DNA of 64,000 nucleotides from the NCBI RefSeq assembly GCF_032464895.1, contig NZ_JAWDIC010000001.1, forward strand, positions 1,116,001 to 1,180,000, read 5' to 3'. The DNA comes from Phycicoccus sp. M110.8. GTDB lineage: Bacteria > Actinomycetota > Actinomycetes > Actinomycetales > Dermatophilaceae. Below are positions 3,288 to 31,973 of this stretch, piece after piece (within the stretch, counting starts at the first letter, position 1; the number at the start of each line of letters is the position of its first letter). The notes below the pieces were generated by a model. That model was not told where the DNA came from, did not search any database, and saw nothing but the letters and a program-made list of their open reading frames with translations. A program made the position numbers and the translations under genes.

Positions 3288-3299
3288 ATTGTCGACAAT
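3288..3299. promoter_or_regulatory. ATTGTCGACAAT operator in front of M20 amidohydrolase
   Basis: Perfect 12-bp palindrome 15 bp upstream of the M20 start at 3314 and 8 bp downstream of a TTGACT (3274-3279) that may be a -35 box. It fits the TNGT-N-ACNA pattern of FadR-subfamily GntR sites. The identical 12-mer occurs again at 19942 and 31794. Confidence 0.75.
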
Positions 3300-3313
3300 C
3301 GGACGGTTGAATC

Positions 3314-4537
3314 ATGACGAGTGGCGAAGACGCGAAGAAGCGCCTGCTGCCCGAGTTGACCGGGCTACGTCATGAGTTGCACGCCATCCCGGAGCTCGGG
3401 CTGGAGCTGCCGGCCACCCAGGGCCTGATCCTCGACGCCCTGTCAGGTCTCGATCTCGAGGTGCGGACTGGCACACGCTGCTCGTCGATCACCGCGGTGC
3501 TGCATGGTTCGGGGACGACCCACGGGGAACGCCCGGTCACGCTCTTGCGCGCGGACATGGACGGACTTCCCATCGAGGAGCGGGCCGAGGTCGACTACCG
3601 CAGCCGTCACCGGGGTCGCATGCACGCCTGCGGCCATGACCTGCACATGGCGATGCTCGTCGGTGCGGCGAAGACGCTCTGCTCGCGTCGAGAAGAGGTG
3701 AAGGGGGACGTCATCTTCGCGTTCCAGCCGGGCGAGGAGGAGGGCGGCGGCGCGGAGGTGATGCTCAGTGAGGGACTTCTTCAGGTGGCAGGTCGAAGGC
3801 CGGATGTCGCATGGGCCCTGCACGTCCTCAGTGGGACCGTGCCCCGCGGTCAGGTCCTTTCCCGCCAAGGGCCCTTGATGGCGGCGAGCAACCAGCTGCA
3901 CGTGACCGTCCGCGGGATGGGTGGGCACGGGTCCGCGCCGCATCGCGCCAAGGACCCGGTGCCGGTGGCGGCCGCGATGGTCGGCGGCCTGCAGACCATC
4001 ATGACGCGGACGGTGTCAGCCTTCGCCCCAGCCGTTCTCACCGTAGGGAGGTTCAACGCCGGCAACGCCGCCTACATCATCCCCGAGTCGGCGTCCTTCG
4101 CCGCCACGATCCGATGCTTCGACTCCGAGGTGCTTGACGGTCTTGAACACGACGTCGTGCGCTTTTGTCGTGGTGTCGCGGACTCTCACGGGCTGGACGC
4201 CGACGTCCGCTTCGAGCGGCACTACCCGGTGACCGTGAACGCCGGCGGCGCCGTCACCGTCGCCGAGGAGGTCGTCGGCACGGTTCTCGGGCAGCGTCGC
4301 TGGGAGTGGATGCCGGACCCGACGATGTTGGCCGAGGACTTCTCCAGGATCCTGGAGAGGGTCCCGGGCGCGATGCTCCTACTCGGCGCGTCCACAGGCG
4401 GCGAGGCGTGGCAGACCTCCGCTGACAACCACTCCCCCTACGCGACCTTCTCCGACGAGGTCCTCGCAGACGGAGCGGCGTTGCACGCGGCTCTCGCCGT
4501 GCGGTCCCTCTCCGACATGGTGTCGTCGCGAGCCTGA
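3314..4537 (+). CDS. M20 family amidohydrolase (hippurate/IAA-amino acid hydrolase type)
   Basis: A 407-residue cytoplasmic metallo-amidohydrolase expected to cleave N-acyl or N-aroyl amino acids. Metal motifs are visible: LLRADMDGLP (residues about 77-86), MHACGHDLHMAML (about 103-115) with the Cys/His metal ligands, QPGEEEGGGAEVM (about 136-148) with the catalytic Glu, and a late MLAEDF. The dimerisation lid lies about 190-300. Its promoter carries the ATTGTCGACAAT palindrome, tying it to the transporter and oxidase operons. A ROK-type regulator follows 235 bp downstream. The exact acyl substrate is unknown. Confidence 0.92.
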   Translation: MTSGEDAKKRLLPELTGLRHELHAIPELGLELPATQGLILDALSGLDLEVRTGTRCSSITAVLHGSGTTHGERPVTLLRADMDGLPIEERAEVDYRSRHRGRMHACGHDLHMAMLVGAAKTLCSRREEVKGDVIFAFQPGEEEGGGAEVMLSEGLLQVAGRRPDVAWALHVLSGTVPRGQVLSRQGPLMAASNQLHVTVRGMGGHGSAPHRAKDPVPVAAAMVGGLQTIMTRTVSAFAPAVLTVGRFNAGNAAYIIPESASFAATIRCFDSEVLDGLEHDVVRFCRGVADSHGLDADVRFERHYPVTVNAGGAVTVAEEVVGTVLGQRRWEWMPDPTMLAEDFSRILERVPGAMLLLGASTGGEAWQTSADNHSPYATFSDEVLADGAALHAALAVRSLSDMVSSRA

Positions 4538-4772
4538 CTGGCCCCTGCGAGACTCGGCGTCTCGAACAGGGCCACGAAGCCGGGTGGTCCCCGGCGCACC
4601 TCGTGTGCTGATACTGGCCTCCGCGATCGGCGACTGCGCCGACACTGGACCTCGACAGCAGAAGGAGTTGGTGGACGGGTGGCCAGCGCTGAGTCTCTCG
4701 GGGGACCGGAACTCGGTGAGCGCCCCCCACCTGCTCGAGTCGCGTGCCGCCACCCGTCGTCGGAGCACCTCC

Positions 4773-5951
4773 ATGAACACGCCTGAACCGCTCTCCCCCC
4801 AGACGCTCCGAAACCAGAACCTGTCGCTGCTGCTGCGCGCCCTCCTGCGTCGTGACGAGGTGACTCGCAAGCAGCTGGAGGAGGAGACAGCGCTCAGCAA
4901 GGCCACGGTCTGGCGACTCGTCGACGACCTGCTCGACGTGGGCGCAGTGGTGATGGAAACGTCCGAACCGGTCGACCCTTCCGCGCGCGGGCGCCGCCCG
5001 GGGTCGCTCCGCGCCACGAGTGCGCTCGGCGCGAGCGCCGGCCTCAGCCTCGGGCTGCGGAGCTCGAGGGTTCTGGTGACCGACCTGCTCGGAACCGAGC
5101 TCGCCCAGGAGCAGCTCCAGACGCCCACCTGGAGGGACCTCGGCGATGCTGTGGACTGGGCTGCCGGCGTCGTGACGGCGGCACTGGAGCGCGTGCACCC
5201 GAGGTTGAGGCGTCTCGTCGTGGCGGTCCCGGCCCGAGCCATCAACGGCCAGGTCGGGGCCCGCCTGCCCTTGTTCATGGGCGTCATCGAGGGTCCCGAG
5301 TTCGGGCGGCTGCTCGCGGACAGGCTCGGCTGCCCTGTCCGGATCGAGACCGATGCCGCGATGATCCTTGCCGGGCTCGAGGCGCTGAGGCTCCTTGATC
5401 GCGAGGCCTTCCCCGTGCTGCTGAACTTCGGCTCGGTCCTGACGATGTCCCTGCGGCGAGCCGACGGGACCATCGCGGAGGGCAGGAGCTCGTCCTTCGG
5501 CGACTTCGGCCTCATCCCCGTGGAGACCGAGCTGGGGCGCCTCCGGATCGGCGACCTGCTCGGCGCGCACGGGCTTTTCGAGGCTTCCAGGCGGCTGGGA
5601 CGCGAGCTGCCCGCGATGGAGGACCTGTGGCAGACGGACTCGGAGGAGGTCAAGCGCTTGGGCCGCGCCTTCGCGGTCGCCCTCGAGCACGCCCTGCGCG
5701 CCATCGTCGTGATGTCGGATCCCAAGGAGATCGTCTTCACCGGCAGACTCGCGCCCCTCGTCGAGCGGAGCCTCGCCGAGGTGGAGCGGCACCTGGCGGA
5801 CGAGGTCGCCGAGCCTCCCCGGCTTCGCGTGGTCGACTACACAGAGGAAGGCCACGCGGCAGCCGTCGGCGCTGCCGAGGAGGCCCGCTGGGGCGCCACC
5901 ATCGAGCTCCTTGATCGCGTCGCCAGACAGGGCGTCGAAGCGCTCCGGTGA
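4773..5951 (+). CDS. ROK/NagC-type transcriptional regulator (first of two)
   Basis: A 392-residue protein with an N-terminal winged helix (residues about 10-65; LRNQNLSLLLRALLRRDEVTR then LSKATVWRLVDDLLDVG) and a ROK-like sugar-kinase fold C-terminus. The kinase features are degenerate: no DxGGT phosphate loop is visible and the CxCGxxGC zinc motif of typical ROK proteins is absent. It should therefore act only as a ligand-responsive repressor. It resembles the regulator at 38087-39256, including the shared FGDxG patch. ATG at 4773 follows CGGAG by 7 bases; an open frame extends about 190 bases further left without family-like sequence. It converges with the SDR gene. Confidence 0.85.
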   Translation: MNTPEPLSPQTLRNQNLSLLLRALLRRDEVTRKQLEEETALSKATVWRLVDDLLDVGAVVMETSEPVDPSARGRRPGSLRATSALGASAGLSLGLRSSRVLVTDLLGTELAQEQLQTPTWRDLGDAVDWAAGVVTAALERVHPRLRRLVVAVPARAINGQVGARLPLFMGVIEGPEFGRLLADRLGCPVRIETDAAMILAGLEALRLLDREAFPVLLNFGSVLTMSLRRADGTIAEGRSSSFGDFGLIPVETELGRLRIGDLLGAHGLFEASRRLGRELPAMEDLWQTDSEEVKRLGRAFAVALEHALRAIVVMSDPKEIVFTGRLAPLVERSLAEVERHLADEVAEPPRLRVVDYTEEGHAAAVGAAEEARWGATIELLDRVARQGVEALR

Positions 5952-5966
5952 CTGCGCGAGGTGTGC

Positions 5967-7336: not shown

Positions 7337-8440
7337 TCAGCTGAGCTGGCCTTGGGCGTCGACTCGCCAACGGTCCAGGAGGCTGCCGGCGCTGTCGGTG
7401 ACCAGGAGCTCGTCGAAGCTGTTGACGACCGGGCAGACGTGGTGGGGCACGACCGCGATCCGCTCCCCGACCCGGGGCCTAGCGCCTCCCGGGGGCAGGC
7501 GCAGGAAGCCGTGGTACTCGTTGAGCTTCGCCAGGTAGCCGCCGTAGCTCGGGACCTGGCCGTAGCCCCGGTCAGGATTGCCCTCACGCGCGAGGGCCTT
7601 CGTGCCCGCATCGAGGATCACGTGCTCATGACCTTGGTCGCTCACGACCGTGCTGGCAAGGAACAGACCGACATCCTGGGTCGCGCAGTCACCGAGCCGG
7701 AAGTTGTCGTAGTCGTTGAAGACGTACTCCCCGGGCCGGATCTCGGAGATGACCGGGTCGATGCTGAACTCCGCGGTCGGCGTCGACCCCGCGCTCACGA
7801 CCTCCGCCTCGATGCCGTTCTCGGTCAGAGCGTCCACGGCCTCACGCAGCGCCGCAGCCTGGTCGCGTGCGGCGTCCTCTCGCGCACCCACGGTGCCGCC
7901 ATGGCCCGGGTAGGTGAACACGCCCCGAGCGTGGAGACCGCGTGACCTCGCGTATGCCGCGAGCGCGCCCGCCGCGTCCGGGCGCACACCCGAACGCCTG
8001 GCGCCACAGTCGACCTCGACGACGACTCCCAGTCGGCTGCGAAGGGTTCCCATCGCGTCGGCGAGCGCGTCGACGGCCTCACGGCTCTCGATGCCGACGC
8101 TGAGGTCCGTGCGTTGCACCAGGCGCTGGAGCCGTTCGCCCTTCGACCCGGCCGGCCACACCGGGTACGCCAGCAAGATGCTGTCGCACCCGGCTCCGGC
8201 GAAGATCTCCGCCTCGCTGAGGGTGCCGGCAGTCAGCCCGCAGGCACCTGCCGACAGCTGCAGACGCCCGATCTCGAGGCTCTTGTGGGTCTTGACGTGG
8301 GGGCGCAGCTGCTTGCCGTGGGTCTGCGCAAAGGCCTGCATCCTGTTGATGTTCTCCTCCACGACGTCGATGAGGACGATGGGAGCCGGCGTGCTGACGC
8401 GGTCGCCGAGGGACGCGATGACCGATGGGAACTGGTGCAC
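7337..8440 (-). CDS. PLP enzyme of the D-threonine aldolase/D-serine dehydratase family
   Basis: A 367-residue fold-type III PLP enzyme. The N-terminal alanine-racemase-like barrel contains RPHVKTHKS (residues about 46-54) with the Schiff-base Lys. The C-terminal beta domain has the metal pair in VPHHVCPVVN (about 334-343), matching the His-x-Cys site of D-threonine aldolases and DSD1-type dehydratases. It would act on a D-beta-hydroxy amino acid. It sits 18 bp behind a HAD hydrolase and ahead of RidA, which can clear imine products. Substrate is not decided by sequence. Confidence 0.88.
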   Translation of the reverse strand: MHQFPSVIASLGDRVSTPAPIVLIDVVEENINRMQAFAQTHGKQLRPHVKTHKSLEIGRLQLSAGACGLTAGTLSEAEIFAGAGCDSILLAYPVWPAGSKGERLQRLVQRTDLSVGIESREAVDALADAMGTLRSRLGVVVEVDCGARRSGVRPDAAGALAAYARSRGLHARGVFTYPGHGGTVGAREDAARDQAAALREAVDALTENGIEAEVVSAGSTPTAEFSIDPVISEIRPGEYVFNDYDNFRLGDCATQDVGLFLASTVVSDQGHEHVILDAGTKALAREGNPDRGYGQVPSYGGYLAKLNEYHGFLRLPPGGARPRVGERIAVVPHHVCPVVNSFDELLVTDSAGSLLDRWRVDAQGQLS

Positions 8441-8458: not shown

Positions 8459-9124
8459 CTAGGCGCCGACCAGGTCCGCCACGCCTGCGAGCGTGGTGCG
8501 TCGGACGCCGGCGTAGTCGAGGGGCTCGTCACCGTGGTCGATGTACGCGATCTCCTTGATCCCCATCGCGGTGGCTGGGATGACGTCGTACCAGATGTGC
8601 GCCGACACGTGCAGCAGGTCGGCCGGGTCGGCGTCCAGCTCGTCGAGCATGTACTCGAACGCACGAAGGCGTGGCTTGTAGGCCCCCGCCTGCTCGGCTG
8701 TGAACACCCGGTAGAACTCCACGCCGAGCTTCTCGACGTTGCCGTTGACGAGGTGGTCGGAGTGGTTCGTCAGGATCACCAGGGGGTACTTCTTCGCAAG
8801 CCGCTGCAGCGGCTCCACGACGTCCGGGTGCGGCCCCCAGGTCGGGATGGCGTCGACCATCTGGTCGACGTCGGACTGGCGGAACTCGATCTTCCACCGC
8901 TTGCACGTCCGCTCCCAGGAGTCACGGATGACCTGGGGGTAGGGCTTGTACTCGCCCAGCACCTCGTCCTCGCGGTAGCTGCTGAAGTGGTCCCGAAGGA
9001 GGGAGTGGTCATCAGGCGGCACGACCCCGTCGAGAACGGAGGTGACGATCGGAGCGAGCTGGAAGTTCGTGAGCGTGCCCAGCATGTCGAAGGTGATGAA
9101 CCTGGGGGTGAGGATGTCGCTCAT
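8459..9124 (-). CDS. HAD hydrolase, haloacid-dehalogenase type II-like (paralogue 1)
   Basis: A 221-residue HAD protein. Motif I is FDMLGTL (nucleophilic Asp about residue 13), motif II LTN (about 117-119), motif III Lys in YKPR, motif IV HVSAHIWYD. The second Asp of phosphatase motif I is replaced by Leu, as in 2-haloacid dehalogenases, but the dehalogenase SSNxWD signature reads SAHxWYD. The real reaction is uncertain. It leads the operon HAD, aldolase-like, RidA, SDR. ATG at 9124 is preferred. Three paralogues with the same length and C-terminal LxG[AL] end occur in the window. Confidence 0.9.
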   Translation of the reverse strand: MSDILTPRFITFDMLGTLTNFQLAPIVTSVLDGVVPPDDHSLLRDHFSSYREDEVLGEYKPYPQVIRDSWERTCKRWKIEFRQSDVDQMVDAIPTWGPHPDVVEPLQRLAKKYPLVILTNHSDHLVNGNVEKLGVEFYRVFTAEQAGAYKPRLRAFEYMLDELDADPADLLHVSAHIWYDVIPATAMGIKEIAYIDHGDEPLDYAGVRRTTLAGVADLVGA

Positions 9125-9186
9125 TGGTCGGTGCCTCCATCGGCAGTCAGCTGTCTCGGGATGTGGTGCTGCGAGCGTACACATTA

Positions 9187-9367: not shown

Positions 9368-9925
9368 TCAGGCCGGCACCCTCCGGGCCGCAGCGACGCG
9401 TCTGAGCTCTGCGAGACATCGCCGGGTCACCTGCTCGGGGGTCCCGCGCCCGTCCACCACGGCGAGGAGGCCCCGGGCCTGGAACCAGGACAGCAACGGC
9501 CCGACCGTGTCGTCGAAGCCCACGACCCGTCGCCTCAGCCGGTCGCCATCGGCCGGGAGCCGGCGCAGTGCCTCCTGGTGCGGTACGCCCAGCAGGATGG
9601 CCAGGTCGAGCGTCTGCCCGCAGTCCGTGCACCATCGCTCGAGGTGCTGGGCCTGCTCAGGGGTGCGGGGGAACCCGTGCAGCAACCAGCCTCGTCGGGT
9701 GTCACGGTGGGACAGCCGCTCGCGGACCAGGGCCACGCAGTCGACGTCCGTGGGTTCCATCCCCGCGGCGAGTGCCGCCCGCACTCGCGCTCCGAGGGGT
9801 GTGCCCGCCGCGTGGACGCGCAGGACGTGGTCGCCACCGACAGCGGGCAGCCCCAGCGACTCGGACAGGAGGCCGGCCTGGGTGGCTGCTCCCGCGCCCG
9901 GCGCTCCCAGGAGCACGACCCTCAC
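9368..9925 (-). CDS. Adenylate kinase-like protein with altered P-loop
   Basis: A 185-residue protein that aligns with short nucleoside-monophosphate kinases: GAPGAG...TQA at residues 8-17, GGDHVLR, and GFPRTPEQAQ (about 90-99, the NMP-binding signature). The Walker A lysine is missing: GAPGAGAAT instead of GxPGxGKGT. The conserved ATP-lid arginines are not clear. Kinase activity is therefore doubtful, although nucleotide binding may remain. It starts with GTG overlapping the aldehyde dehydrogenase stop by 4 bp (GTGA), so it is translated from the catabolic operon. It is not the housekeeping adk. Confidence 0.75.
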   Translation of the reverse strand: MRVVLLGAPGAGAATQAGLLSESLGLPAVGGDHVLRVHAAGTPLGARVRAALAAGMEPTDVDCVALVRERLSHRDTRRGWLLHGFPRTPEQAQHLERWCTDCGQTLDLAILLGVPHQEALRRLPADGDRLRRRVVGFDDTVGPLLSWFQARGLLAVVDGRGTPEQVTRRCLAELRRVAAARRVPA

Positions 9926-11427
9926 GACGTCGCTCGACCATCGGCCGTGACCGCGGGCGGCGGTTGCCGGCGCACCGCGACGATCTTGGGTTCGGTCAGC
10001 TCGCGAACGACCAGCTCGGGCCCCTCCCGTCCGATCCCCGAACGCTTGAAACCGCCGAACGGCATGGCGTCCACGCGGAAGTCGGAGCTCTCGTTGATCA
10101 TCACCGCCCCTACTCGCAGGTCCGCGGCGACGGAAAGGGCCACGTCGAGGTCGCGGGTGAAGACACCGGCCTGCAAACCTGTCTCGACCGCGTTGGCGGA
10201 TGCCACGGCCTCGGTCAGGTCCTCGAACGGCTCCAGGGACACCACCGGTCCGAAGACCTCCTCGAGGCGGAGCCTCGCGTCCTCGGGCACGCCGGTCAGG
10301 ACGGCAGGCGTCAGGAAGGCTCCGGTGCGCACGCCACCGGTGTGCAGTGTCGCCCCGGCCCGGACCGCCTCGTCCACCCAGCTGCTGACCCGGGTCGCCT
10401 CCTCCACCGAGATGAGCGGACCCACATCCGTGTCCTCGCTCCGTTTGCTCCCGACCCTCAGTGCCTGCGCCCCGGCCACGACTCGGTCGAGCACGGCATC
10501 GAAGAGCTCGGCCGCGATGAAGACGCGCTGCACCGACAGGCAGTTCTGCCCCGCGACACCGAAGGCACCCTGGACGACCGCGTCGGCCACCTGGCCGGGG
10601 TCTGCGTCCGCACATGCGATCAGGGCGTTGTTACCGCCCAGCTCCATCAACAGCTTTCGAGCCGGGCCGCCGGCCGCGATGCGGTCGGCCGTGCGCGGCC
10701 CCCCGGTGAAGGAGATGACCTCCACCCGGCGGTCGGCGACGAGCGCCGGCCCGGCGTCCGCGCCGCTCACCACCGCCAGGAACGATCCCGGCACCCCGCA
10801 CTCCAGGAGGAGGTCGACCAGCGCGTACGCCGACAGCGGGGTGGGGGCGGCGGGCTTGAGGACCACGGGGTTCCCGGCGATCAGAGCCGGACCGAGCTTG
10901 TGGGCCACGAGGTTGAGCGGGTCGTTGAAGGGAGTGATGGCCCCCACCACGCCGATGGGTTCACGGGTGTACCAGCCGAGCCACCCAGTCCCGCGAGCTG
11001 TGTCGTCGAAGGGCACCGTGCCGCCTGCCAGCTCGCCTGCCGCTCGCGCCGAGACCCGCAGGGTGTCCGTCGCCCGCAGGACCTCGCTCCGCGCCTGGGC
11101 GAGTGTCTTACACCCCTCCGCGGCGATGAGATGGGCGAAGCGCTCGACGAGGTGCGTCAGCCGGTGCGCGGCACTCTCCAAGGTCTCTCGGCGCTGCCAC
11201 AGCGGCCACGAGGTGGACTGCCAGTTGCGAGCGAGGTAATCCACCGCACGCCGAACCTCGTCCTCCGTGGCGTCCATGACGCGCCCGAGCTCCGCACCGT
11301 CCTCCGGGTCGTGGACGCTCAGCCAGCGGGCACCGTCCTGCCAGCGACCCTCCCAGAAGCCACCAGCAAGTGGCTGCCACACCTCGACCTCGGACGAGGT
11401 GCGCGTGCCTTCCTCCACCGGGCTCAT
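9922..11427 (-). CDS. Aldehyde dehydrogenase (ALDH superfamily)
   Basis: A 501-residue NAD(P)-dependent dehydrogenase. It shows the general-base Glu in LLMELGGNN (residues about 262-270), the catalytic Cys in AGQNCLS (about 300) and the C-terminal EEVFGPVV and FGGFKRSG patches. It would oxidise the aldehyde released by the amine oxidase encoded in the same operon (16085-17362). ATG at 11427 overlaps the stop of the transporter ATPase gene (ATGA) and has GAGGAGG upstream. The best family resemblance is to benzaldehyde/vanillin-type or salicylaldehyde ALDHs; the substrate is not fixed by sequence. Confidence 0.93.
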   Translation of the reverse strand: MSPVEEGTRTSSEVEVWQPLAGGFWEGRWQDGARWLSVHDPEDGAELGRVMDATEDEVRRAVDYLARNWQSTSWPLWQRRETLESAAHRLTHLVERFAHLIAAEGCKTLAQARSEVLRATDTLRVSARAAGELAGGTVPFDDTARGTGWLGWYTREPIGVVGAITPFNDPLNLVAHKLGPALIAGNPVVLKPAAPTPLSAYALVDLLLECGVPGSFLAVVSGADAGPALVADRRVEVISFTGGPRTADRIAAGGPARKLLMELGGNNALIACADADPGQVADAVVQGAFGVAGQNCLSVQRVFIAAELFDAVLDRVVAGAQALRVGSKRSEDTDVGPLISVEEATRVSSWVDEAVRAGATLHTGGVRTGAFLTPAVLTGVPEDARLRLEEVFGPVVSLEPFEDLTEAVASANAVETGLQAGVFTRDLDVALSVAADLRVGAVMINESSDFRVDAMPFGGFKRSGIGREGPELVVRELTEPKIVAVRRQPPPAVTADGRATS

Positions 11428-14162: not shown

Positions 14163-14211
14163 TGGTACTCCTGTCCGGTCACTCTCGCCAAAACCTCGCC
14201 TCATGATGGCC

Positions 14212-19717: not shown

Positions 19718-19729
19718 ATTGTCAACAAT
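19718..19729. promoter_or_regulatory. ATTGTCAACAAT operator, transporter operon
   Basis: One-base variant of the perfect 12-bp palindrome, about 80 bp upstream of the binding-protein ATG. The minus-strand reading contains TTGACA. Centre-to-centre distance to the next weaker copy (19748-19757) is about 29 bp, similar to the 27-bp pair near 31.8 kb. Confidence 0.7.
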
Positions 19730-19941: not shown

Positions 19942-19953
19942 ATTGTCGACAAT
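19942..19953. promoter_or_regulatory. ATTGTCGACAAT operator, GNAT/aminotransferase operon
   Basis: Perfect palindrome ending 3 bp before a TTGACC -35 candidate and about 100 bp before the GNAT start. A protein bound here would block or contact polymerase. Confidence 0.75.
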
Positions 19954-22410: not shown

Positions 22411-22411
22411 C

Positions 22412-23908: not shown

Positions 23909-24044
23909 GGTCCCTGGCCCCTCCCCGCCGGCCCCCCTCGGGGAAAGGCATCTCTTCGCCGCGCTCGCGGGCCCGGGTTCCACCGCCCCTTCCACCACCA
24001 TCGCCACGGCGCACGTCCGTGGCGCCCACCACCAGGAGAGCTCG

Positions 24045-24758
24045 ATGACATCTGTCGCCGCGGAACGTCCGCACCACGTCGACCACCACCGCGACGTCAC
24101 CGGAGGGTGGCTGCGCGCGGGTGTGTTCGGGGCCATGGACGGCCTCATCTCGAACTTCGCCCTCATCTCCGGCGTCGTGGGGGGCGGCGCACCATCCAAG
24201 GTGGTCGTGCTGACCGGCGTCGCCGGCCTGTCCGCCGGGGCCCTCTCCATGGCGGTCGGCGAGTTCATCTCCGTGGCGTCGCAGAGCGAGGCGACCATGG
24301 CCGAGATCGAGAAGGAGCGGCGGGAGCTGCACCGCCACCCCGGCCAGGAAGCAGCAGAGCTGGCCCAGGTGTACGAGTCGTACGGCGTGGAACCGGAACT
24401 GGCCCAGGCCGTCGCCACCCAGATCGCCAAGGACCCCGAGGTGGCCCTGCGCGTCCACGTGCGCGAGGAGATGGGCGTGGACGCGGACGACCTCCCGTCG
24501 CCCTGGACCGCCGCGCTCGCGTCCTTCATCTGCTTCTCGGTGGGCGCCCTCATCCCCCTCATCCCGTTCCTGTTGGGCGCAAGCACGATCGTCGTCGCGG
24601 CGATCCTGAGCGCGGTCGGCCTGTTCACATCCGGGGCCGTCGTCTCCCGCCTGACCGTGCGCTCCCCGTTCTACGGGGGCGTGCGGCAGCTGTTGCTCGG
24701 CATCTTCGCGGCCGCCGCGACCTACGGCATCGGAAGCCTCGTCGGCACCTCCTTGTGA
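24045..24758 (+). CDS. VIT1/CCC1 family transporter
   Basis: A 237-residue membrane protein with five membrane segments. The first is GVFGAMDGLISNFALISGVVG, with the conserved DGLISNF motif, and the second holds GALSMAVGEFISVASQSE. The cytosolic loop (residues about 85-150) has Glu-rich metal-binding helices. The family exports Fe2+ or Mn2+ from the cytosol. The upstream 136 bp contains only a short leader; the gene is not clearly part of the ALDH operon. A strong hairpin follows. Confidence 0.92.
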   Translation: MTSVAAERPHHVDHHRDVTGGWLRAGVFGAMDGLISNFALISGVVGGGAPSKVVVLTGVAGLSAGALSMAVGEFISVASQSEATMAEIEKERRELHRHPGQEAAELAQVYESYGVEPELAQAVATQIAKDPEVALRVHVREEMGVDADDLPSPWTAALASFICFSVGALIPLIPFLLGASTIVVAAILSAVGLFTSGAVVSRLTVRSPFYGGVRQLLLGIFAAAATYGIGSLVGTSL

Positions 24759-24915: not shown

Positions 24916-26067
24916 TCAGCGGGCCGGGGCGACAGCGGTCCTGGCGTCCTGTGGGAGCATGAAGGCGGCATCGCGGCGCGTCCGGCCGTCGATGACGTAG
25001 TCGGCGACGATGTCGCCCATCACCGGCGCGAACTTGAACCCAGAACCCGAGAAGCCGCACGCCGCATACACCCCGTCGTGACCGGGCACCGGGCCCACCA
25101 GCGGTGTCGAGTCGTGGGTGTAACCCTCGATGTGGATGGACAGGTTGACCGGCTCCGGGTGCAGGCCGGGAAGGAACCTCCTGACCTGCTCTCGGAGCTC
25201 GAGTGCCTTGGCGACGTCGACCACGTGGTCGACGGCCTCGACGTCGCCCACGACCGGGTGCTCCCCGGTCCAGAACCCGAGCTTCACGGTGGCGCCGTCG
25301 ACCGTGGGGAACCCGTAGGCGCGCACGTCCCCGACGCGCTCGAACACCGGAAAGCGCTCCGCACGGTACAGGGCGATGTCCTGCGGCACGTACCACGCCT
25401 GGACCAGCCGACGCGGGACGACGTCCGCGCCGGCACCGGGGACCAGCTGGCTCGCCCAGGCGCCAGGCGCCACCACGACCGCGTCGTGGTGTGCCTCTCC
25501 CTCATCGGTCCGGACGACGACATGGTTCCCGCGGCCCTCGATGCCCAGAACCCTCGTGTACTGGGACACGGTTGCCCCTGCACCCATGGCGGCTTCGACG
25601 GCGGCGACGACGCTGAGCTCCGGCCGGATGTAGCCGGTCAGCTCGTCCGTGACGCCCGCATCCCCGATCCGGACGTGGTGTTGGGGGAACCTGGCCTTCA
25701 GGTCCTCGGACCCCAGCACCTCGTGCGCCAGGTCATTGGTGCGCGCCGACTCGATGGCGCTGGTCAGGGCGGGGGCGTCCTCGGGACCGAAGATCAGGCC
25801 GCCCGTGAGAGTCAGCACCTCGTGCTCGGTGGTCCGACGCAGCTCACGCCACAGCTCGAGCGCCTCCAGGGCCAGCGGCGTGTTCTGCTGGATGCGCTGG
25901 CTGAGCGTGGAGAAGCGCCGCGTCTGGCCTCCTGCGGCCCCACGGTGGTGGCCGACGCCGAAGCGTTCGTAGCCGTGGACCCGCACACCTCGTTCAGCGA
26001 GGCGCCACAACGCCATGCTGCCCATGGTTCCCAGCCCCACGACCCCCACGTTCACGCTGCTCGTCAC
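24916..26067 (-). CDS. Monomeric sarcosine oxidase/N-methyltryptophan oxidase-type FAD enzyme
   Basis: A 383-residue flavoprotein. The FAD motif GVVGLGTMGSMALWRLAERG lies at residues about 7-26. The MSOX-like covalent flavin Cys is in ACGFSGSGFKFAPVMG (about 340-355), matching the CGFSGHGFKF signature. EGYTHDSTPLVGP is also typical. It oxidises a secondary amine, for example an N-methyl amino acid, to an aldehyde or ketone plus amine. The start is GTG at 26067, overlapping the dehydrogenase stop by 4 bp, so translation is coupled. Confidence 0.9.
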   Translation of the reverse strand: MTSSVNVGVVGLGTMGSMALWRLAERGVRVHGYERFGVGHHRGAAGGQTRRFSTLSQRIQQNTPLALEALELWRELRRTTEHEVLTLTGGLIFGPEDAPALTSAIESARTNDLAHEVLGSEDLKARFPQHHVRIGDAGVTDELTGYIRPELSVVAAVEAAMGAGATVSQYTRVLGIEGRGNHVVVRTDEGEAHHDAVVVAPGAWASQLVPGAGADVVPRRLVQAWYVPQDIALYRAERFPVFERVGDVRAYGFPTVDGATVKLGFWTGEHPVVGDVEAVDHVVDVAKALELREQVRRFLPGLHPEPVNLSIHIEGYTHDSTPLVGPVPGHDGVYAACGFSGSGFKFAPVMGDIVADYVIDGRTRRDAAFMLPQDARTAVAPAR

Positions 26068-27134
26068 CTGCGGACTCCTTTCGTATCCAGCGCGGCGACG
26101 ACCGCATCGGTCACCTCGCCCGTGCTTGCCGTCCCACCGACGTCCGGTGTGCGCGTGGCGGGGTCGCGAAGGGACGACTCCACCGCTCCCATGAGCACCG
26201 CGCTCGCCTCCTTCATGCCGAGGTGGTCCAACATCATGACCACCGACCACAGCATGCCCACGGGGTTGGCCAGTCCCTGGCCGGCGATGTCCGGCGCCGA
26301 GCCGTGCACAGGCTCGAACATGGATGGGTTGGTACCAGTGGGGTCGAGGTTGGCGGACGGCGCGATGCCGATGCTCCCGCAGACCCCCGCTGCCAGGTCG
26401 CTGAGGATGTCCCCGAACAGGTTCGAGCCCAGCACCACGTCGAAGGAGCTGGGCACCATGACCAGCTTCGCGGCCAAGGCGTCGATGTGCTCCAGGCGCA
26501 GCTGGACCGGGAGCCCGGAGAGGGTCTCTGCGACCACCTCGTCCCAGAACGGCATGGTGTGCACGATGCCGTTGGACTTCGTCGCTGCCGTGACCAGTCC
26601 GCGTCGAGACATCGCCTCCTGCGCGGCGAAGCGCGCGATGCGTTCGACGCCCGTCCTCGTGAAGATCGCCTGTTGCACAGCCTGCTCGTGAGGGGTCCCT
26701 GCGCCGAACCGTCCGCCGACCTCGCTGTACTCGCCCTCACTGTTCTCGCGCACGATGAGCAGGTCGACGCCGGCGGCGAGGTCGGGGCGCAGCGGTCCGG
26801 TCACGCCGTCGAGGGCGCGGACCGGCCGCAGGTTGACGTACTGGCCGAAGGCGCGCCGGATGGGGATGAGCAGCCCCCACAGCGACACGTGGTCGGGGAC
26901 ACCCGGCCAGCCGACAGCGCCGAGCAGGATCGCGTCGTGACCTCGAAGAACCTCGAGGCCGTCCTCGGGCATCATCGAGCCGCGTTCGAGGTAGCGCTGG
27001 CACGACCAGTCGAGCTCGGTGAACTCGAACCGTTCACCCGCCACGCGTTCCAGGGACCGGAGCACGCTGCGTGCTGCAGCCATCACCTCCACCCCGATGC
27101 CGTCGCCCGGGATGAGCGCCACAGACGTCGTCAT
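26064..27134 (-). CDS. Isocitrate/isopropylmalate dehydrogenase family, tartrate/D-malate type
   Basis: A 356-residue NAD-dependent beta-decarboxylating dehydrogenase. It begins VALIPGDGIGVEV (residues about 5-17) and has NLRPVRALDG, LLIVRENSEGEYSEVGG (about 131-147), TKSNGI, GSNLFGDILSDLAAG and FEPVHGSAPDIAGQG. The ENSEGEY-x-x-x-G motif and length suggest tartrate dehydrogenase/D-malate dehydrogenase rather than leucine synthesis, because no leu gene is near. ATG at 27134. Its promoter carries a TTGACA -35 (27228-27233) and GACAAT -10 (27205-27210) overlapping the palindrome. Confidence 0.9.
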   Translation of the reverse strand: MTTSVALIPGDGIGVEVMAAARSVLRSLERVAGERFEFTELDWSCQRYLERGSMMPEDGLEVLRGHDAILLGAVGWPGVPDHVSLWGLLIPIRRAFGQYVNLRPVRALDGVTGPLRPDLAAGVDLLIVRENSEGEYSEVGGRFGAGTPHEQAVQQAIFTRTGVERIARFAAQEAMSRRGLVTAATKSNGIVHTMPFWDEVVAETLSGLPVQLRLEHIDALAAKLVMVPSSFDVVLGSNLFGDILSDLAAGVCGSIGIAPSANLDPTGTNPSMFEPVHGSAPDIAGQGLANPVGMLWSVVMMLDHLGMKEASAVLMGAVESSLRDPATRTPDVGGTASTGEVTDAVVAALDTKGVRR

Positions 27135-27204: not shown

Positions 27205-27216
27205 ATTGTCGACAAC
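27205..27216. promoter_or_regulatory. ATTGTCGACAAC operator over the -10 of the dehydrogenase/oxidase operon
   Basis: Eleven of twelve bases match the palindrome. On the minus strand a TTGACA (27228-27233) is followed after 17 bases by GACAAT (27205-27210), so the operator covers the -10 box. This is a direct steric-repression layout. Confidence 0.75.
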
Positions 27217-27316: not shown

Positions 27317-27328
27317 CCTGTCGACAAT
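27317..27328. promoter_or_regulatory. CCTGTCGACAAT operator in front of AbgA-like gene
   Basis: Ten of twelve bases match the palindrome, with an intact right half. It ends 11 bp before the ATG at 27340, so bound repressor would block the start of transcription or translation of the M20 gene. Confidence 0.6.
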
Positions 27329-27339: not shown

Positions 27340-28596
27340 ATGACGGATCTGGTCGCGCTGAGGCGGGCACTGCACGCCCGGCCGGAGCTCGCGTTCACCG
27401 AGATCGAGACCGCCGCCAAGGTCGTGACGGAGCTGACAGGCAGAGCCGACAGCATCCAGGCAGGTACCGCGGTGTGCGACCTCGACTGCGTGACCGGGCT
27501 CCCCGACCCCGATCAGCTCGAGGCCAGTCGGCGGCGCGCCCTTGCCTCCGGAGTACCCCAAGAGCTCGTGCGCACCCTCGGCGAGGGCGCCACGGGTGTC
27601 GTCGTCACGGTCCGAGGCCGGCGCCCGGGGCCGACGATCGGGATCCGCTTCGACATGGACGCGATCGCTGTCGGTGAGAGCACGAGCCCGGCCCACGCCC
27701 CGACGCGTGGGGGGTTCGCCTCGACGCGTCCCGGGATCATGCACGCGTGCGGACACGACGGGCACGTGGCCGTGGGCATCGAGCTCGGCCGGCGGCTGTG
27801 CGCGGACCGCGACTTCGCCGGCAGAGTCCTGCTCGTCTTCCAGCCCGGCGAGGAGGGGGTACGAGGTGCGCAGGCCATGGTCGCAGCCGGAGTGGTGGAC
27901 GACGTGAGCGTCATGCTCGGACTCCACCTCGGCATCGACCTGCCTGTCGGCACCGTCGCGGCGGGCACGCAGGGCCTGCTCGCCACCCAGAAGCTGCGCG
28001 TCGAGTTCGAGGGCGAAGCCGCCCACGCCGCGCTGGCCCCGCACCAGGGTAGGAACGCGTTGCTCGGGGCGGCATCCGCGAGCCTGGCACTCCACACCCT
28101 CCCGCCGCACGGCGACCACACCACGCGAGTCAATGTCGGTCGACTCGTCGCAGGCACCGCCGCAGGCATCGTTCCCGAGCGAGCGGTGATGGACTGCGAG
28201 CTGCGGGCAGACGACGAGACCGTCCTGGAGTGGCTTCGCGGTCGCGCCGGCGACATCGTCCGCGGCGCGGCAAGAAGCTACGGCCTCGCCGCCTCCGTCA
28301 CGCAGATGGGCGCCGCCACCGTGGCGCGGTGCGACGCGCGGCTGGTCCAGGACCTCATGACGGCAGCGTCCACCTTGGCCGCGGTCCAGACCTCGCTCGC
28401 GTCCGCGCCCATGCGGGCCAGCGACGACATGACCCTGTTCATGTCCCACGTGCAGGAGCGCGGGGGCGTGGCCACCTTCGCCCTCGTCGGGGCGTCGAGC
28501 CCTGCCCCACACCACCACCCGCTGTTCGACATCGATGAGCGCGCCCTCCCCATCGCGGCGGACTGGCTGGAGCGCCTGATTCGCGCCGGCTTGTGA
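27340..28596 (+). CDS. M20 amidohydrolase, AbgA-like (aminobenzoyl-glutamate hydrolase subunit A family)
   Basis: A 418-residue metallo-amidohydrolase. The order GLPDPDQL, GEGATGVVVTV, RPGPTIGIRFDMDA, GFASTRPGIMHACGHDGH (residues about 127-144), FQPGEEGVRGAQAMV and a late MGAATVAR closely follows E. coli AbgA, the catalytic partner in folate-fragment (p-aminobenzoyl-glutamate) hydrolysis. E. coli needs AbgB and the AbgT permease; neither is in this window. It could act as a homodimer on another acyl-amino acid brought in by the ABC transporter. ATG at 27340 follows GGGAGA by 4 bases. Confidence 0.9.
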   Translation: MTDLVALRRALHARPELAFTEIETAAKVVTELTGRADSIQAGTAVCDLDCVTGLPDPDQLEASRRRALASGVPQELVRTLGEGATGVVVTVRGRRPGPTIGIRFDMDAIAVGESTSPAHAPTRGGFASTRPGIMHACGHDGHVAVGIELGRRLCADRDFAGRVLLVFQPGEEGVRGAQAMVAAGVVDDVSVMLGLHLGIDLPVGTVAAGTQGLLATQKLRVEFEGEAAHAALAPHQGRNALLGAASASLALHTLPPHGDHTTRVNVGRLVAGTAAGIVPERAVMDCELRADDETVLEWLRGRAGDIVRGAARSYGLAASVTQMGAATVARCDARLVQDLMTAASTLAAVQTSLASAPMRASDDMTLFMSHVQERGGVATFALVGASSPAPHHHPLFDIDERALPIAADWLERLIRAGL

Positions 28597-28639
28597 CCGA
28601 GTGGCGGACGAGGGTTGTCCGGGTCCACCGATCGTGCAA

Positions 28640-28663
28640 CTATCTGCGCATGAACGCAGATAG
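28640..28663. promoter_or_regulatory. ArsR-type inverted repeat overlapping the start codon
   Basis: CTATCTGCG (28640-28648) and CGCAGATAG (28655-28663) form a perfect 9-6-9 inverted repeat. The ATG of the ArsR gene (28650) lies in the spacer, so the protein probably represses its own operon by covering the start site. Confidence 0.75.
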
Positions 28664-29042
28664 CCAGACATTCGCGGGTGAGCGATCTCCCACCCCCGAC
28701 GAGGTGGATCTCGCCACGGAGGTCTTCCGGATGCTGGCGGACAGCACCCGCTTCCGACTCCTCCTCGCACTCGTCGATCGCGAGCTGTCGGTCAACGACC
28801 TCGCCCAAGCCCTCGAGAAGCCGTCCACCGGCGTCTCGCAGCACCTCGCGAAGCTGCGGCTGGCCCGTCTCGTCGCCACCCGCCGACAGGGCACGCACGT
28901 CTACTACCGCCTGGAGAACGAGCATGTCCGGCAGCTCGTGGTGGATGTCCTCGACCACGCGGAACACCTCGGCCCATCCGTTCCGAGGCACCACCAACAG
29001 CAGTCGCACCCGATCACCCGACGAGCAGCAGGAGACCGATGA
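28650..29042 (+). CDS. ArsR/SmtB family metal-responsive repressor (first of two)
   Basis: A 130-residue winged-helix repressor. The HTH region is SVNDLAQALEKPSTGVSQHLAKLRLARLV (residues about 47-75) and the wing RRQGTHVYYRL. The last helix has DVLDHAEH and a HHQQQSH tail, consistent with alpha-5 or C-terminal metal ligands of the zinc/cobalt sensors. ATG at 28650 sits within a 9-bp inverted repeat. It overlaps the CDF exporter start by 4 bp (ATGATGA), so sensor and exporter form one unit. Confidence 0.92.
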   Translation: MNADSQTFAGERSPTPDEVDLATEVFRMLADSTRFRLLLALVDRELSVNDLAQALEKPSTGVSQHLAKLRLARLVATRRQGTHVYYRLENEHVRQLVVDVLDHAEHLGPSVPRHHQQQSHPITRRAAGDR

Positions 29043-30286
29043 TGAGCACGCCGATCCCGCCGTCCCACGGGAGGGCAACCGCAGAGACGGGCCACGCGCA
29101 CCCCCACCCGCACCCGGCAACGGAGCACGGTCACGACCACGGGGAGCACGGTCACGGGGACCACGGTCACGACCACGGGGAGCACGGTCACGGGGACCAC
29201 GGTCACGGGGACCACGGTCACGCCCACGCCGAGCACGACCACGGGGACCACGGCCACGGCCACGGCCACGGCCACGGCGACCACGACCACGACCACGAGC
29301 ACCCGGGCGGCATCAAGGGCTTCTTCCTCGACATCTTCAAGCCGCACAGCCACGACTCTGCGGACTCCGTGGACCAGGCGCTGGAATCCAGCACCGAGGG
29401 CATCCGTGCGGTGAAGATCAGCCTCGTCGCCCTGGGCGTCACGGCCCTCCTGCAGGCACTCGTCGTGGTCATCACGGGCTCGGTGGCCCTCCTCGCCGAC
29501 ACGATCCACAACTTCTCGGACGCCCTCACCGCGGTTCCCCTCTGGATCGCCTTCGTCCTGGGCCGCCGGGCGGCCAACCGTCGGTTCACCTATGGCTACG
29601 GCCGCGCCGAGGACATCGCCGGAGTGTTCATCGTCCTCATGATCACCCTGTCCGCGGTCCTGGCCGGCTACGAGTCGGTGGTGCGCATCATCGATCCGCA
29701 CCCCATCGAGAACGTCGGCGTCGTCCTCGCCGCAGGGTTCCTCGGCTTTGTCGGCAACGAGCTCGTCGCCCAGTACCGCATCCGCGTGGGCAACCGGATC
29801 GGCTCGGCGGCCCTCGTCGCCGACGGCCTGCACGCCCGAACCGACGGATTCACCTCCTTGGCGGTCGCGGTCGGGGCCGTCGGGGTCATGCTGGGATTCC
29901 CCCTTGCCGACCCCATCATCGGACTGCTCATCACCGTCGCCATTCTCGTGGTCCTGAAGGGCGCGATCGTCGACATCGGCCGCCGGCTGATGGATGCCGT
30001 TGACCCGGAGCTCGTCGACCGGGCCGAGGGCGTACTGCTCTCCGTCCCCGGCGTGCAGGCCGTCGACTCCCTCAAGGTCCGCTGGGTGGGCCACCGCCTG
30101 CGCGCGGAGACCGGCGTGGAGATCGCCGGCTCCCTCGACGTCTTCCAGGCCCACGACATCGCGCACGAAGCGGAGCGCCGGCTGGTTGCCGGAGTCCCCA
30201 AGCTGGTCGAGGCAACCGTCCACGTGAGCCCGGCGCCCGTCCCGGCGACGACCGAGATCCCGACGGGCGCCGCGGCCTTCCACTAG
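29039..30286 (+). CDS. Cation diffusion facilitator (zinc/cobalt exporter) with very His-rich N-terminus
   Basis: A 415-residue membrane antiporter. Residues 10-90 carry 31 histidines in HGD/HGE/HDH repeats, likely a cytosolic zinc-binding tail. Six membrane segments follow from about residue 125. The zinc site motifs HNFSDA (about 160) and DGLHARTDG (about 263) are intact and match the CDF HxxxD pairs. A C-terminal cytoplasmic domain ends about residue 400. It exports Zn2+ or Co2+ using the proton gradient and is coupled to the ArsR gene. A strong hairpin follows its stop. Confidence 0.95.
   Translation: MMSTPIPPSHGRATAETGHAHPHPHPATEHGHDHGEHGHGDHGHDHGEHGHGDHGHGDHGHAHAEHDHGDHGHGHGHGHGDHDHDHEHPGGIKGFFLDIFKPHSHDSADSVDQALESSTEGIRAVKISLVALGVTALLQALVVVITGSVALLADTIHNFSDALTAVPLWIAFVLGRRAANRRFTYGYGRAEDIAGVFIVLMITLSAVLAGYESVVRIIDPHPIENVGVVLAAGFLGFVGNELVAQYRIRVGNRIGSAALVADGLHARTDGFTSLAVAVGAVGVMLGFPLADPIIGLLITVAILVVLKGAIVDIGRRLMDAVDPELVDRAEGVLLSVPGVQAVDSLKVRWVGHRLRAETGVEIAGSLDVFQAHDIAHEAERRLVAGVPKLVEATVHVSPAPVPATTEIPTGAAAFH
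29118..29300 (+). repeat. In-frame imperfect DNA repeats coding the His-rich tail
   Basis: Imperfect repeats of CACGGTCACGGGGAC and CACGACCACGGGGAG type, in phase with the codons. They encode alternating His-Gly/His-Asp units. Such repeats can expand or contract by slippage. Confidence 0.8.
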
Positions 30287-30398: not shown

Positions 30399-31040
30399 CT
30401 ACGTGTCGAGCGCGCTCGTGAAATGACGCGCCAGCTCCCACCCGAAGGCCTCCACGTCGTCCTCGAGCACCGCCTCTGCCAGGGGCTCGTGCTCAGCGGC
30501 GACGTCCTGCAGGGTCGGGTACGTGCCGTGGTCCACGGAGAGATAGAGACGGAGCCTGCTCTCCCAGCCGTCCCAGAGCTCCTGGAGGAGCCCGTGTCCG
30601 GACATGGCGTAGAACAACCGGTGGAACTGCAGGTGCGCGTCGATGCTGGCCGGCGCGTCCTGGGAGGCGGTCGCCGACCTCAGCGCCTCGAGGGCGGTCG
30701 CCACCGCCTCCCGGACGCTCACCCGCGCCCTTGCGAGGGCAAGCTGACCGGCATACGGCTCCACGAGCAGCCGGATCGACGCGATCTCAGCGATCTCCGC
30801 TTCACCCACCTCCACGACGAAGGCGCCCCGGAACGGGACCCTCGTGAGCAGACCCTCCTCTTCGAGCCTGCTCATGGCTTCGCGCAGCGGGGTCCTGCTC
30901 GTGCCCAGGTCCCGGGCGAGGTCCACCTCCCGCAGCGCCTCACCCTGTCGGATCCTGCCCGCGAGGATCGCCGATCGGAGCACCGCATGGATGCCCTCCC
31001 CGGTGGTGCTTCGCTGCAGGCCGACGAATCTGCGGTCCAA
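30399..31040 (-). CDS. GntR family regulator, FCD subfamily, behind HAD 3 (third of three)
   Basis: A 213-residue repressor. Winged helix residues about 10-75 (LRSAILAGRIRQGEALREVDLARDLGTSRTPLREA) and FCD domain about 85-205 with HLQFHRLFYAMSGH and EHEPLAEAVL metal/ligand segments. No ATG fits the N-terminus; TTG at 31040 is preceded by AAGGAG at 8-13 bases. It follows HAD 3 by 38 bp and shares its promoter, which has two palindrome copies. Autoregulation by this gene is the simplest reading, so it is the leading candidate regulator of the ATTGTCGACAAT set. Confidence 0.9.
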   Translation of the reverse strand: MDRRFVGLQRSTTGEGIHAVLRSAILAGRIRQGEALREVDLARDLGTSRTPLREAMSRLEEEGLLTRVPFRGAFVVEVGEAEIAEIASIRLLVEPYAGQLALARARVSVREAVATALEALRSATASQDAPASIDAHLQFHRLFYAMSGHGLLQELWDGWESRLRLYLSVDHGTYPTLQDVAAEHEPLAEAVLEDDVEAFGWELARHFTSALDT

Positions 31041-31078
31041 CGGCGTTCTCCTTCAAGAGAGCGTGCCCTCAGGCCCTG

Positions 31079-31750
31079 TCAGGCCCCAAGGACCACGGGC
31101 AGGTCCGCAATGTCGGTGATCCGCTCGTAGCCCAGCCAGTTCTCGTCGTGCTCGAAGCCGCGATCCATGTAGACCTTGTGCGTGATCCCCATCGCCGCCG
31201 CCGGTCGAAGGTCGTAGGTGGGGCTCGCCGACACGTGGACGACCTCGTGCGGCGCCGCCCCGAGCCGTTCCAGCATGTACTCGAAGGCCCGGAGTCGAGG
31301 CTTGTAGACGCCCATCTCCTCCGCCGTGATCACGGTGTCGAAGGGAGCACGGAGGTTGTCGACCAGCTGGGCCGCGTGGGCGTTGTCGCTGTTCGTGACG
31401 ATCACCAGGGGGTAGGACGCCGCCAGGCGATTGAGGGCGTCGGTGACGCCCGGATAGGGGCCCCACGTCGGGATCTGGTCGTAGACGGCCTTGGCGTCGC
31501 CCTCGTGCGCCTCGATCCCGAACCGGTGCGTGGCACGGGCGAGTGAGCTCCCGACGACGTCGAGGAAGGACTGGTACTCCCCCAGGCACTCATCGACGCG
31601 GTAGACCTTGCAGGCCCGGAGGAAGTCGTCCGCCACCTCGTCGGGGAGTCGACTGCCCAACGTCGCTCGAATGGCGTCGTTGATTCGGAAGCGGATCAAC
31701 GTCCCGTTCATGTCGAACGTGACGAATCGGGGCTCGATGTCGAACTGCAC
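31079..31750 (-). CDS. HAD hydrolase, haloacid-dehalogenase type II-like (paralogue 3)
   Basis: A 223-residue HAD protein, the most divergent of the four. Motif I is FDMNGTL, motif II VTNSD, motif III VYKPRLRAFEYML and motif IV HVSASPTYD, where the HxWYD pattern is partly lost. The reaction is unknown. GTG at 31750 is preceded by GAGGAGAG. It leads a two-gene operon with the GntR regulator, an arrangement different from the enzyme-linked paralogues. It may make or destroy the inducer. Confidence 0.88.
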   Translation of the reverse strand: MQFDIEPRFVTFDMNGTLIRFRINDAIRATLGSRLPDEVADDFLRACKVYRVDECLGEYQSFLDVVGSSLARATHRFGIEAHEGDAKAVYDQIPTWGPYPGVTDALNRLAASYPLVIVTNSDNAHAAQLVDNLRAPFDTVITAEEMGVYKPRLRAFEYMLERLGAAPHEVVHVSASPTYDLRPAAAMGITHKVYMDRGFEHDENWLGYERITDIADLPVVLGA

Positions 31751-31793
31751 GGGCTCTCCTCAACTCGTCCACCCCGGGACCTCCGTGGTGTCG

Positions 31794-31805
31794 ATTGTCG
31801 ACAAT
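31794..31805. promoter_or_regulatory. ATTGTCGACAAT operator O1, HAD 3-GntR promoter -10
   Basis: Perfect palindrome covering most of the minus-strand -10 TATTGT (31801-31806). With O2 it encloses the promoter of the HAD 3-GntR operon. Confidence 0.8.
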
Positions 31806-31820
31806 ACGCTGTCGCTGATC

Positions 31821-31832
31821 ATTGTCAACAAT
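31821..31832. promoter_or_regulatory. ATTGTCAACAAT operator O2, HAD 3-GntR promoter -35
   Basis: One-base variant of the palindrome. Its minus-strand reading contains the -35 TTGACA (31823-31828), so repressor and polymerase would compete. Confidence 0.8.
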
Positions 31833-31961
31833 AGAAGGACGAGGATGCCATGACGCTGATCGTGCACGGCTCGCTCTGGATTGCTTGGCACGTCACGCTT
31901 TGCGGCACACACGAAACAGGTCGACCTGCTCGCGCCCTCGACCGTCGTGGGGTTCCGCGTA

Positions 31962-31973
31962 CCTGTTGACAAT
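31962..31973. promoter_or_regulatory. CCTGTTGACAAT operator at the cupin promoter
   Basis: Nine of twelve bases match the palindrome; the site contains the plus-strand -35 TTGACA (31966-31971). It lies about 120 bp upstream of the cupin ATG. Confidence 0.55.

Follow-up and report, generated by a model that had tools for sequence, protein, structure and literature searches.

A conserved palindrome as the operator of a dispersed catabolic regulon in Phycicoccus sp. M110.8, possibly for the breakdown of an azetidine-ring chelator

The window analysed here is the whole stretch of 64,000 nucleotides (positions 1,116,001 to 1,180,000 of contig NZ_JAWDIC010000001.1, assembly GCF_032464895.1) from the actinobacterium Phycicoccus sp. 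M110.8, with a G+C content of 70%. Over about 29 kb, from position 3288 to 31973 (the island), a palindrome, ATTGTCGACAAT, and close copies of it stand in front of a series of separate genes and operons. Its placement, specificity and conservation make it almost certain that this palindrome is an operator joining these dispersed operons in one regulon. The initial annotation had listed nine sites; eight of them stand, six strong and two weak, and are given below without strand, with their position-matrix scores.

3288-3299: operator ATTGTCGACAAT before the M20 gene, score 25.8
19718-19729: operator ATTGTCAACAAT before the transporter operon, score 26.2
19942-19953: operator ATTGTCGACAAT before the GNAT/aminotransferase operon, score 25.8
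27205-27216: operator ATTGTCGACAAC before the TTC/DAO2 operon, score 20.1, overlapping a -10-like hexamer of the minus strand
27317-27328: weak operator CCTGTCGACAAT before the AbgA-like gene, score 14.5
31794-31805: operator ATTGTCGACAAT before HAD3/FCDb, score 25.8, overlapping a -10-like hexamer
31821-31832: operator ATTGTCAACAAT before HAD3/FCDb, score 26.2, overlapping a -35-like hexamer
31962-31973: weak operator CCTGTTGACAAT before the cupin gene, score 14.8

The genes of the island and of its margins are the following.

184-1206: FCDc, third FCD protein
3314-4537, plus: M20 amidohydrolase, DoeB2/CpsA-like
7337-8440, minus: BhcC-like protein of an aldolase/dehydratase family, no site of its own found
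8459-9127, minus: HAD1, nearest azetidine-2-carboxylate hydrolase
9922-11427, minus: ALDH1, aldehyde dehydrogenase (start approximate)
11424-13489, minus: two ATPases of an oligopeptide/nickel-type ABC transporter
13446-14204, minus: FCDa, GntR/FCD regulator inside the transporter operon
14212-16045, minus: two permeases of the ABC transporter
16085-17362, minus: DAO1, FAD amine oxidoreductase
17382-18056, minus: HAD2, nearest azetidine-2-carboxylate hydrolase
18095-19639, minus: solute-binding protein, NikA-like
20044-20601, plus: GNAT acetyltransferase
20676-21098, plus: small conserved protein, homologues 71-81% identical in related islands
21157-22410, plus: AT3, class-III aminotransferase
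22403-23908, plus: SSADH-like aldehyde dehydrogenase (TIGR01780, 504.6 bits, under the cut-off of 646)
23808-24758, plus: VIT-family metal transporter
24916-26070, minus: DAO2, N-methyltryptophan/sarcosine oxidase-like (276.4 bits, cut-off 257)
26064-27134, minus: TTC, tartrate/D-malate-type dehydrogenase (TIGR02089, 483.3 bits, cut-off 470.4)
27340-28596, plus: AbgA-like M20 amidohydrolase
28593-30286, plus: ArsR regulator and CDF metal exporter
30399-31040, minus: FCDb, second GntR/FCD regulator
31079-31750, minus: HAD3, HAD type II of ambiguous specificity
32094-32459, plus: EutQ-like cupin
32476-33840, plus: MATE transporter

A scan of the window with up to three mismatches to ATTGTCGACAAT revealed 16 matches against 7.05 expected, with a maximum of 13 among 100 shuffles, so that the weaker sites require a test of their own. 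Three copies have no mismatch (3288, 19942 and 31794) and three have one (19718, 27205 and 31821); 27317 differs at two bases, 19747 and 31962 at three. With a position matrix trained on 113 sites (at most one mismatch) from homologous loci, the six strong sites score at least 20, a level reached on average 0.02 times per 64 kb in Markov sequence, and the weak sites at 31962 and 27317 also lie above noise (Markov mean of 0.18 at 14 or more). The candidate CTTGACGACAAG at 19747/8 was rejected, being outside the 14 best matrix scores, and a match at 13627, inside the FCDa gene, scores 12.9.

All eight accepted sites precede gene starts, namely those of the M20 gene (ATG at 3314), the solute-binding protein (19639, minus strand), GNAT (about 20044), the dehydrogenase TTC (27134, minus), the AbgA-like gene (27340), HAD3 (31750, minus) and the cupin (32094). 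As regards the two weak sites, the AbgA homologue of locus L021 is preceded by a perfect site and cupin homologues in L061 and L092 have sites nearby. The site at 27205, originally assigned to a dehydrogenase/oxidase operon, does stand before the dehydrogenase; the oxidase gene (24916-26070) has none of its own and is placed behind the dehydrogenase. Promoter-like sites between 18 and 33 kb number three, against 0.5 expected, and each overlaps an operator, in one case on the strand opposite that of the operon; such overlap is the arrangement that a repressor would need.

In the genome as a whole (4.12 Mb, seven contigs), seven places match the 12-mer with at most one mismatch and six of these are in the island, the seventh (508024) lying within a likely coding open reading frame. 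The exact decamer TTGTCRACAA is found only in the island, where its six copies span 28,545 bases. When one mismatch to the decamer is allowed, 117 forward and 129 reverse matches appear genome-wide (40 and 38 for the reversed control), so that only near-perfect sites discriminate. Near-perfect matches are far from being as frequent elsewhere in the genome, the outcome that the initial annotation had held to speak against a regulon, and its grouping of dispersed operons in one probable pathway is supported. A further FCD regulator, with the helix SRITLRE, is encoded outside the window, about 6 kb to its left (L137; G000:C1:1109780-1110406), and just upstream of its gene ATGGTCGACCAT occurs at L137:60 and L137:1415 as a sister operator.

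Conservation was followed in a motif-based survey of 98 genomes, the window's own and its relatives: the exact pattern ATTGTCRACAAT is present in 25 of them, often in several copies per 10-20 kb, and the reversed control yields five matches in total. These loci were chosen by the motif, so two tests with motif-independent choice of loci were added. For the first, the best 80 of 571 relatives found by DAO1 alignment were taken; with L103 left out, they comprise 46 actinobacterial and 33 proteobacterial loci, and 45 of the actinobacterial ones were scanned upstream, one having fewer than 150 bases there. Among X5-NN palindromes in front of the HAD/DAO1 operon, ATTGTNNACAAT is the most frequent (12 of the 45 loci; runner-up 3), and 30 of the 45 have a site there that deviates at no more than one base, against none for the reversed pattern and a maximum of zero for 60 permuted palindromes; Arthrobacter and kin contribute many of the loci, which are therefore not independent. 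For the second, FCDa matches in 31 of 394 genomes gave 29 loci, mostly of 3.6 kb, eight of which hold a perfect site (reversed pattern 0, 30 permuted palindromes 0). Where FCDa and the transporter occur together with at least 300 bp upstream, the site is present at no more than one mismatch in nine islands out of nine, two of them on alphaproteobacterial (rhizobial) nodule plasmids of Phyllobacterium and Microvirga. No site was found in S. hainanensis, the tenth FCDa island, which has 121 bp upstream, nor in a second Microvirga stretch, before its HAD gene. This comparison of homologous promoters, which the initial annotation had proposed, supports the regulon. A literature text search for the letters of the palindrome returned no bacterial regulon of this kind among the matches listed, and a search for a regulon of FCD proteins and gamma-aminobutyrate (GABA) led nowhere. 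In Microvirga ossetica a second perfect ATTGTCAACAAT (L176:1146-1157) precedes another GntR gene (1184) and an amino-acid ABC transporter.

Operators of the FadR subfamily are palindromes with GT and AC boxes two to three bases apart, according to the accessible part of PMC4494728, and TTGT-CR-ACAA fits this rule. The assignment to an FCD-type GntR regulator is thereby retained from the initial annotation, with a centre of two bases (TTGT-CG-ACAA) in place of the single base proposed there. The three GntR/FCD proteins differ in standing as candidates; in our analysis FCDa is predicted to be the most likely regulator. It exceeds the gathering scores of both domains (FCD 77 bits, GntR 58.7 bits), and its gene is flanked by permease and ATPase genes both in the window and in eight further genomes. 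Its recognition helix, SRGP, is unique among the seven FCD matches of the genome and is the type most often met elsewhere next to the palindrome; of 24 FCD genes of the SRGP type in actinobacterial loci selected by DAO1, 21 share their locus with a site. No site with up to two mismatches was found in the stretch around FCDc (L139).

FCDb, with the helix SRTP, is encoded behind two sites of the exact type (perfect or near-perfect) and may share them. That in Phycicoccus sp. M110.8 the palindrome is bound by FCDb as repressor, alone or together with FCDa, is a doubtful proposal, for which speak the two strong sites directly before HAD3-FCDb and the sites that precede 10 of 12 HAD3 homologues, in loci mostly carrying FCDb relatives. 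Conversely, although all ten FCDb relatives (helix SRSP) are in loci with a site, theirs is the variant ATTGTCGACCAT or ATGGTCGACAAT, whereas relatives of FCDa adjoin the exact form. This variant marks a sister system of HAD3-like and FCDb-like genes with DAO1 and often BhcC- or SDR-like genes, which is seen in Lentzea, Amycolatopsis, Streptomyces, Nocardioides and Antribacter (L075, L077, L078, L082, L085, L086, L094, L096, L099 and L101).

As for the enzymes, an azetidine route is likely for the HAD proteins and their partners. The idea was formulated before the search of HAD2 against solved structures, in which 3smv, an azetidine-2-carboxylate hydrolase, scored 80.9 bits and the similar entries 8hp5-7 and 8yvw 77-81 bits, the best match outside this group reaching 40.2 bits; the corresponding values for HAD1 are 81.4 and 45.4 bits. 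Haloacids were rejected as first choice for both enzymes, since their azetidine-hydrolase scores are about twice those of outside dehalogenases. A predicted model of HAD2 (mean pLDDT 95.7) retrieves first, in a fold search, the azetidine hydrolase 8ywo (E 2.6e-17, 25% identity) and, in fourth place, 8hp7, which was trapped with (2R)-4-amino-2-hydroxybutanoate, the configuration needed for D-malate. Tartrate/D-malate-type dehydrogenases of the TTC family use D-malate, and the TTC of the island exceeds the curated cut-off of this model. The gene immediately before DAO1 encodes a HAD protein in 31 of 46 actinobacterial and 18 of 33 proteobacterial loci; in 17 of the 46, HAD, DAO1, ALDH1 and TTC follow one another without interruption, an order that fits ring opening, N-dealkylation and then malate. 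The chemistries appear to converge on 2-hydroxy-4-aminobutyrate or an N-alkyl form of it, which would pass from amine to aldehyde, malate and pyruvate. On a Burkholderia cepacia plasmid (L175) a HAD/DAO1 cluster without the operator contains EutB/EutC- or BhcB/BhcD-like genes, a DoeB2-like M20 gene and a TTC above the cut-off, possibly a route for a hydroxylated diaminobutyrate unit.

The solute-binding protein has nickel-binding proteins as best solved relatives (158.8 bits), and the transporter ATPases match, among others, the staphylopine CntD/CntF models. A CDF exporter is also found in the islands of two Nonomuraea strains, Occultella, genome G250 and R. opacus, and a site precedes four of six CDF matches; the Phyllobacterium copy of the island is flanked by two heavy-metal P-ATPases and a CueR gene. 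Two ArsR regulators, the CDF exporter and a heavy-metal P-type ATPase lie within or beside the island of the window itself (28593-30286 and 33916-36375).

The aminotransferase AT3 and the SSADH-like enzyme would fit a conversion of diaminobutyrate to aspartate, and the M20 enzyme is DoeB2-like (248 bits, cut-off 550). A motif-bearing relative (L010) has the palindrome and an SRGP-type FCD gene at an ectoine-type cluster with an ectoine-hydrolase-like protein (407.5 bits, under the cut-off of 613), a class-III aminotransferase and SSADH. Aminotransferase/SSADH clusters of such relatives had been taken for GABA clusters, an idea that was dropped when Pfam and NCBIfam scans of L010 gave the ectoine type. 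In the genome of Phycicoccus no ectoine hydrolase DoeA/EutD was found (best 20 bits, cut-off 613); the same search of 14 control genomes gave matches there too, none above the cut-off. Ectoine was rejected as a substrate here, because the genome has no ectoine hydrolase above the cut-off. No glutamyl-putrescine (Puu) synthetase or hydrolase is among 30 scanned window proteins, a genome search for them not having been made. A near-complete island, with an aspartate ammonia-lyase near it, is present on R. opacus pROB01: it comprises amidohydrolase, DAO2, SSADH, AT3, the small protein, GNAT, CDF, the binding protein, HAD, DAO1, permeases, FCD, ATPases, ALDH and ArsR.

Nicotianamine is a plant metal chelator, from which the mugineic acids derive. 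It consists of azetidine-2-carboxylate with two aminobutyrate units (PMC10341464, in the part accessible). The chances are about even that the palindrome is the operator of an FCD repressor whose regulon imports and degrades an azetidine-ring aminobutyrate chelator, with nicotianamine or a mugineic acid as the most likely substrate. In the scheme that we infer from protein families, gene order and stereochemistry, a dimer of the FCD protein, most likely of FCDa from within the transporter operon that it would control, would mask the core promoters of some seven genes or operons when the substrate is absent, and a pathway intermediate, perhaps 2,4-diaminobutyrate or a derivative, would bring derepression. 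The chelate would be imported by the NikA-type ABC transporter, while CDF and VIT proteins would dispose of the metal; ring opening by a HAD enzyme would then yield a (2R)-2-hydroxy-4-(alkylamino)butyrate, whose secondary amine would be cleaved by DAO1 to give malate semialdehyde, which ALDH1 would oxidize to D-malate and TTC convert to pyruvate. DAO2 would release the remaining aminobutyrate units; AT3 and the SSADH-like enzyme would take diaminobutyrate to aspartate semialdehyde and aspartate. Finally, GNAT may acetylate and the M20 enzymes deacetylate intermediates. The breakdown of nicotianamine, with one ring opening, two secondary-amine cleavages and malate and aspartate ends, would employ the regulon's enzymes; that of free azetidine-2-carboxylate would call for fewer. 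The wider proposal, bacterial catabolism of nicotianamine and/or mugineic-acid phytosiderophores by uptake, HAD ring opening and oxidation that ends in D-malate and aspartate, with export of the metal coupled to it and all under one FCD repressor, also on plasmids of plant-associated Actinomycetota and Pseudomonadota, is tentative and somewhat less probable. No bacterial genes for nicotianamine or phytosiderophore breakdown were found described in the open-licence literature searched.

Several observations weigh against this reading. None of the 33 DAO1-selected proteobacterial loci has a site with at most one mismatch, and few or no homologues of TTC, DAO2, ALDH1, SSADH, BhcC and HAD1 have one directly upstream, partly because they are inside operons. 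Three of the 24 SRGP-type FCD genes are in loci without a site, and SRAP, SRSP and other FCD types adjoin the palindrome too, so that the helix argument is suggestive, not exclusive. For HAD3 the azetidine hydrolase is not singled out (53.6 vs 52.4 bits); in the fold search with HAD2 the dehalogenase 2no4 came second with an almost equal value (E 3.2e-17), and 8hp5-7 carry the label (S)-2-haloacid dehalogenase. All solved relatives of DAO1 are distant ones, the best scoring 45.7 bits. Other HAD/DAO1 loci seldom contain metal genes, with CDF homologues in 3 of 46 actinobacterial and 0 of 33 proteobacterial DAO1-selected loci and a P-ATPase in 2 and 1 of them, respectively, which confines the metal link to the closest, transporter-type islands. 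In two of five inspected plasmid records (Phyllobacterium and Bosea) there is no annotated HAD in the 29-kb stretch. Plasmid records with a DAO1 homologue number 320 (135 of Rhizobium, 72 of Sinorhizobium), and in 316 of them the homologue is less than 60% identical; such distant homologues may serve other functions.

These points leave room for other substrates. It is unlikely, if still to be reckoned with, that the regulon handles some other opine-like or polyamine compound and that the HADs perform different chemistry, e.g. on haloacids or epoxides. All three exceed the NCBIfam cut-off for 'haloacid dehalogenase type II', the fold search separates the azetidine hydrolase and dehalogenase groups only slightly, and the nearest models of DAO1 are pipecolate and aminophosphonate oxidoreductases; against this stand the twofold higher sequence scores of HAD1 and HAD2 for the azetidine hydrolase and the adjacency of the TTC and ALDH1 genes, seen in 17 of 46 loci, which suggests a malate-type product. 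Less probable again is the regulon as described with a small azetidine amino acid, such as azetidine-2-carboxylate in its free form, as substrate, opened by HAD to 2-hydroxy-4-aminobutyrate and converted by DAO1 or an aminotransferase to malate semialdehyde and malate. HAD1 and HAD2 are indeed nearest to an enzyme acting on the free amino acid, and the Aspergillus azetidine-2-carboxylate route passes through GABA catabolism with the help of an acetyltransferase (PMC8016842, as far as its text was available), the island having both a GNAT and an aminotransferase; free azetidine-2-carboxylate, however, needs no two amine oxidases, NikA-type importer, M20 enzymes or linked metal exporter. That the palindromes are clustered by chance, or form part of promoters and serve as no operator, is scarcely credible: some sites overlap -35- or -10-like hexamers and looser matches are common genome-wide, but the exact decamers are confined to the island and the palindrome is conserved upstream of homologous operons, where controls are empty.

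By joining dispersed operons, the FCD regulon makes a testable pathway out of vague annotations (haloacid dehalogenase, FAD oxidoreductase, peptide transporter), and its operator is a marker for finding the regulon in other genomes. Should the substrate be nicotianamine or a phytosiderophore, these would be genes for the microbial loss of plant chelators that move or acquire iron, zinc, nickel and copper.

The system combines traits of several known ones. With FCD-type GntR regulons (PMC4494728) it shares the GntR helix-turn-helix and FCD domains, an A/T-rich GT/AC palindrome with boxes two bases apart and the control of catabolic operons; the TTGT-CR-ACAA operator and the gene set of the island are not mentioned in the accessible portion of that source. 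The best sequence match of HAD1 and HAD2 is L-azetidine-2-carboxylate hydrolase, i.e. the Pseudomonas A2C enzyme and Aspergillus AzhA (3smv, 8ywo; excerpts of PMC8016842), and, unlike in these systems, the operon partners in the island suggest a larger substrate. In ectoine catabolism diaminobutyrate is converted, by way of aspartate semialdehyde, to aspartate by an aminotransferase and an SSADH-related enzyme, the same families as AT3 and the SSADH-like enzyme; ectoine utilization by DoeABCD is, however, controlled by EnuR, of the MocR type (PMC5924519, from its accessible sections), whereas the regulators of the island are FCD proteins. Finally, the best solved relatives of the solute-binding protein belong to NikA/Cnt importers of nickel and opine metallophores; differently from these, the transporter of the island is grouped with catabolic enzymes and with metal export, a combination that suggests use of the ligand as food.

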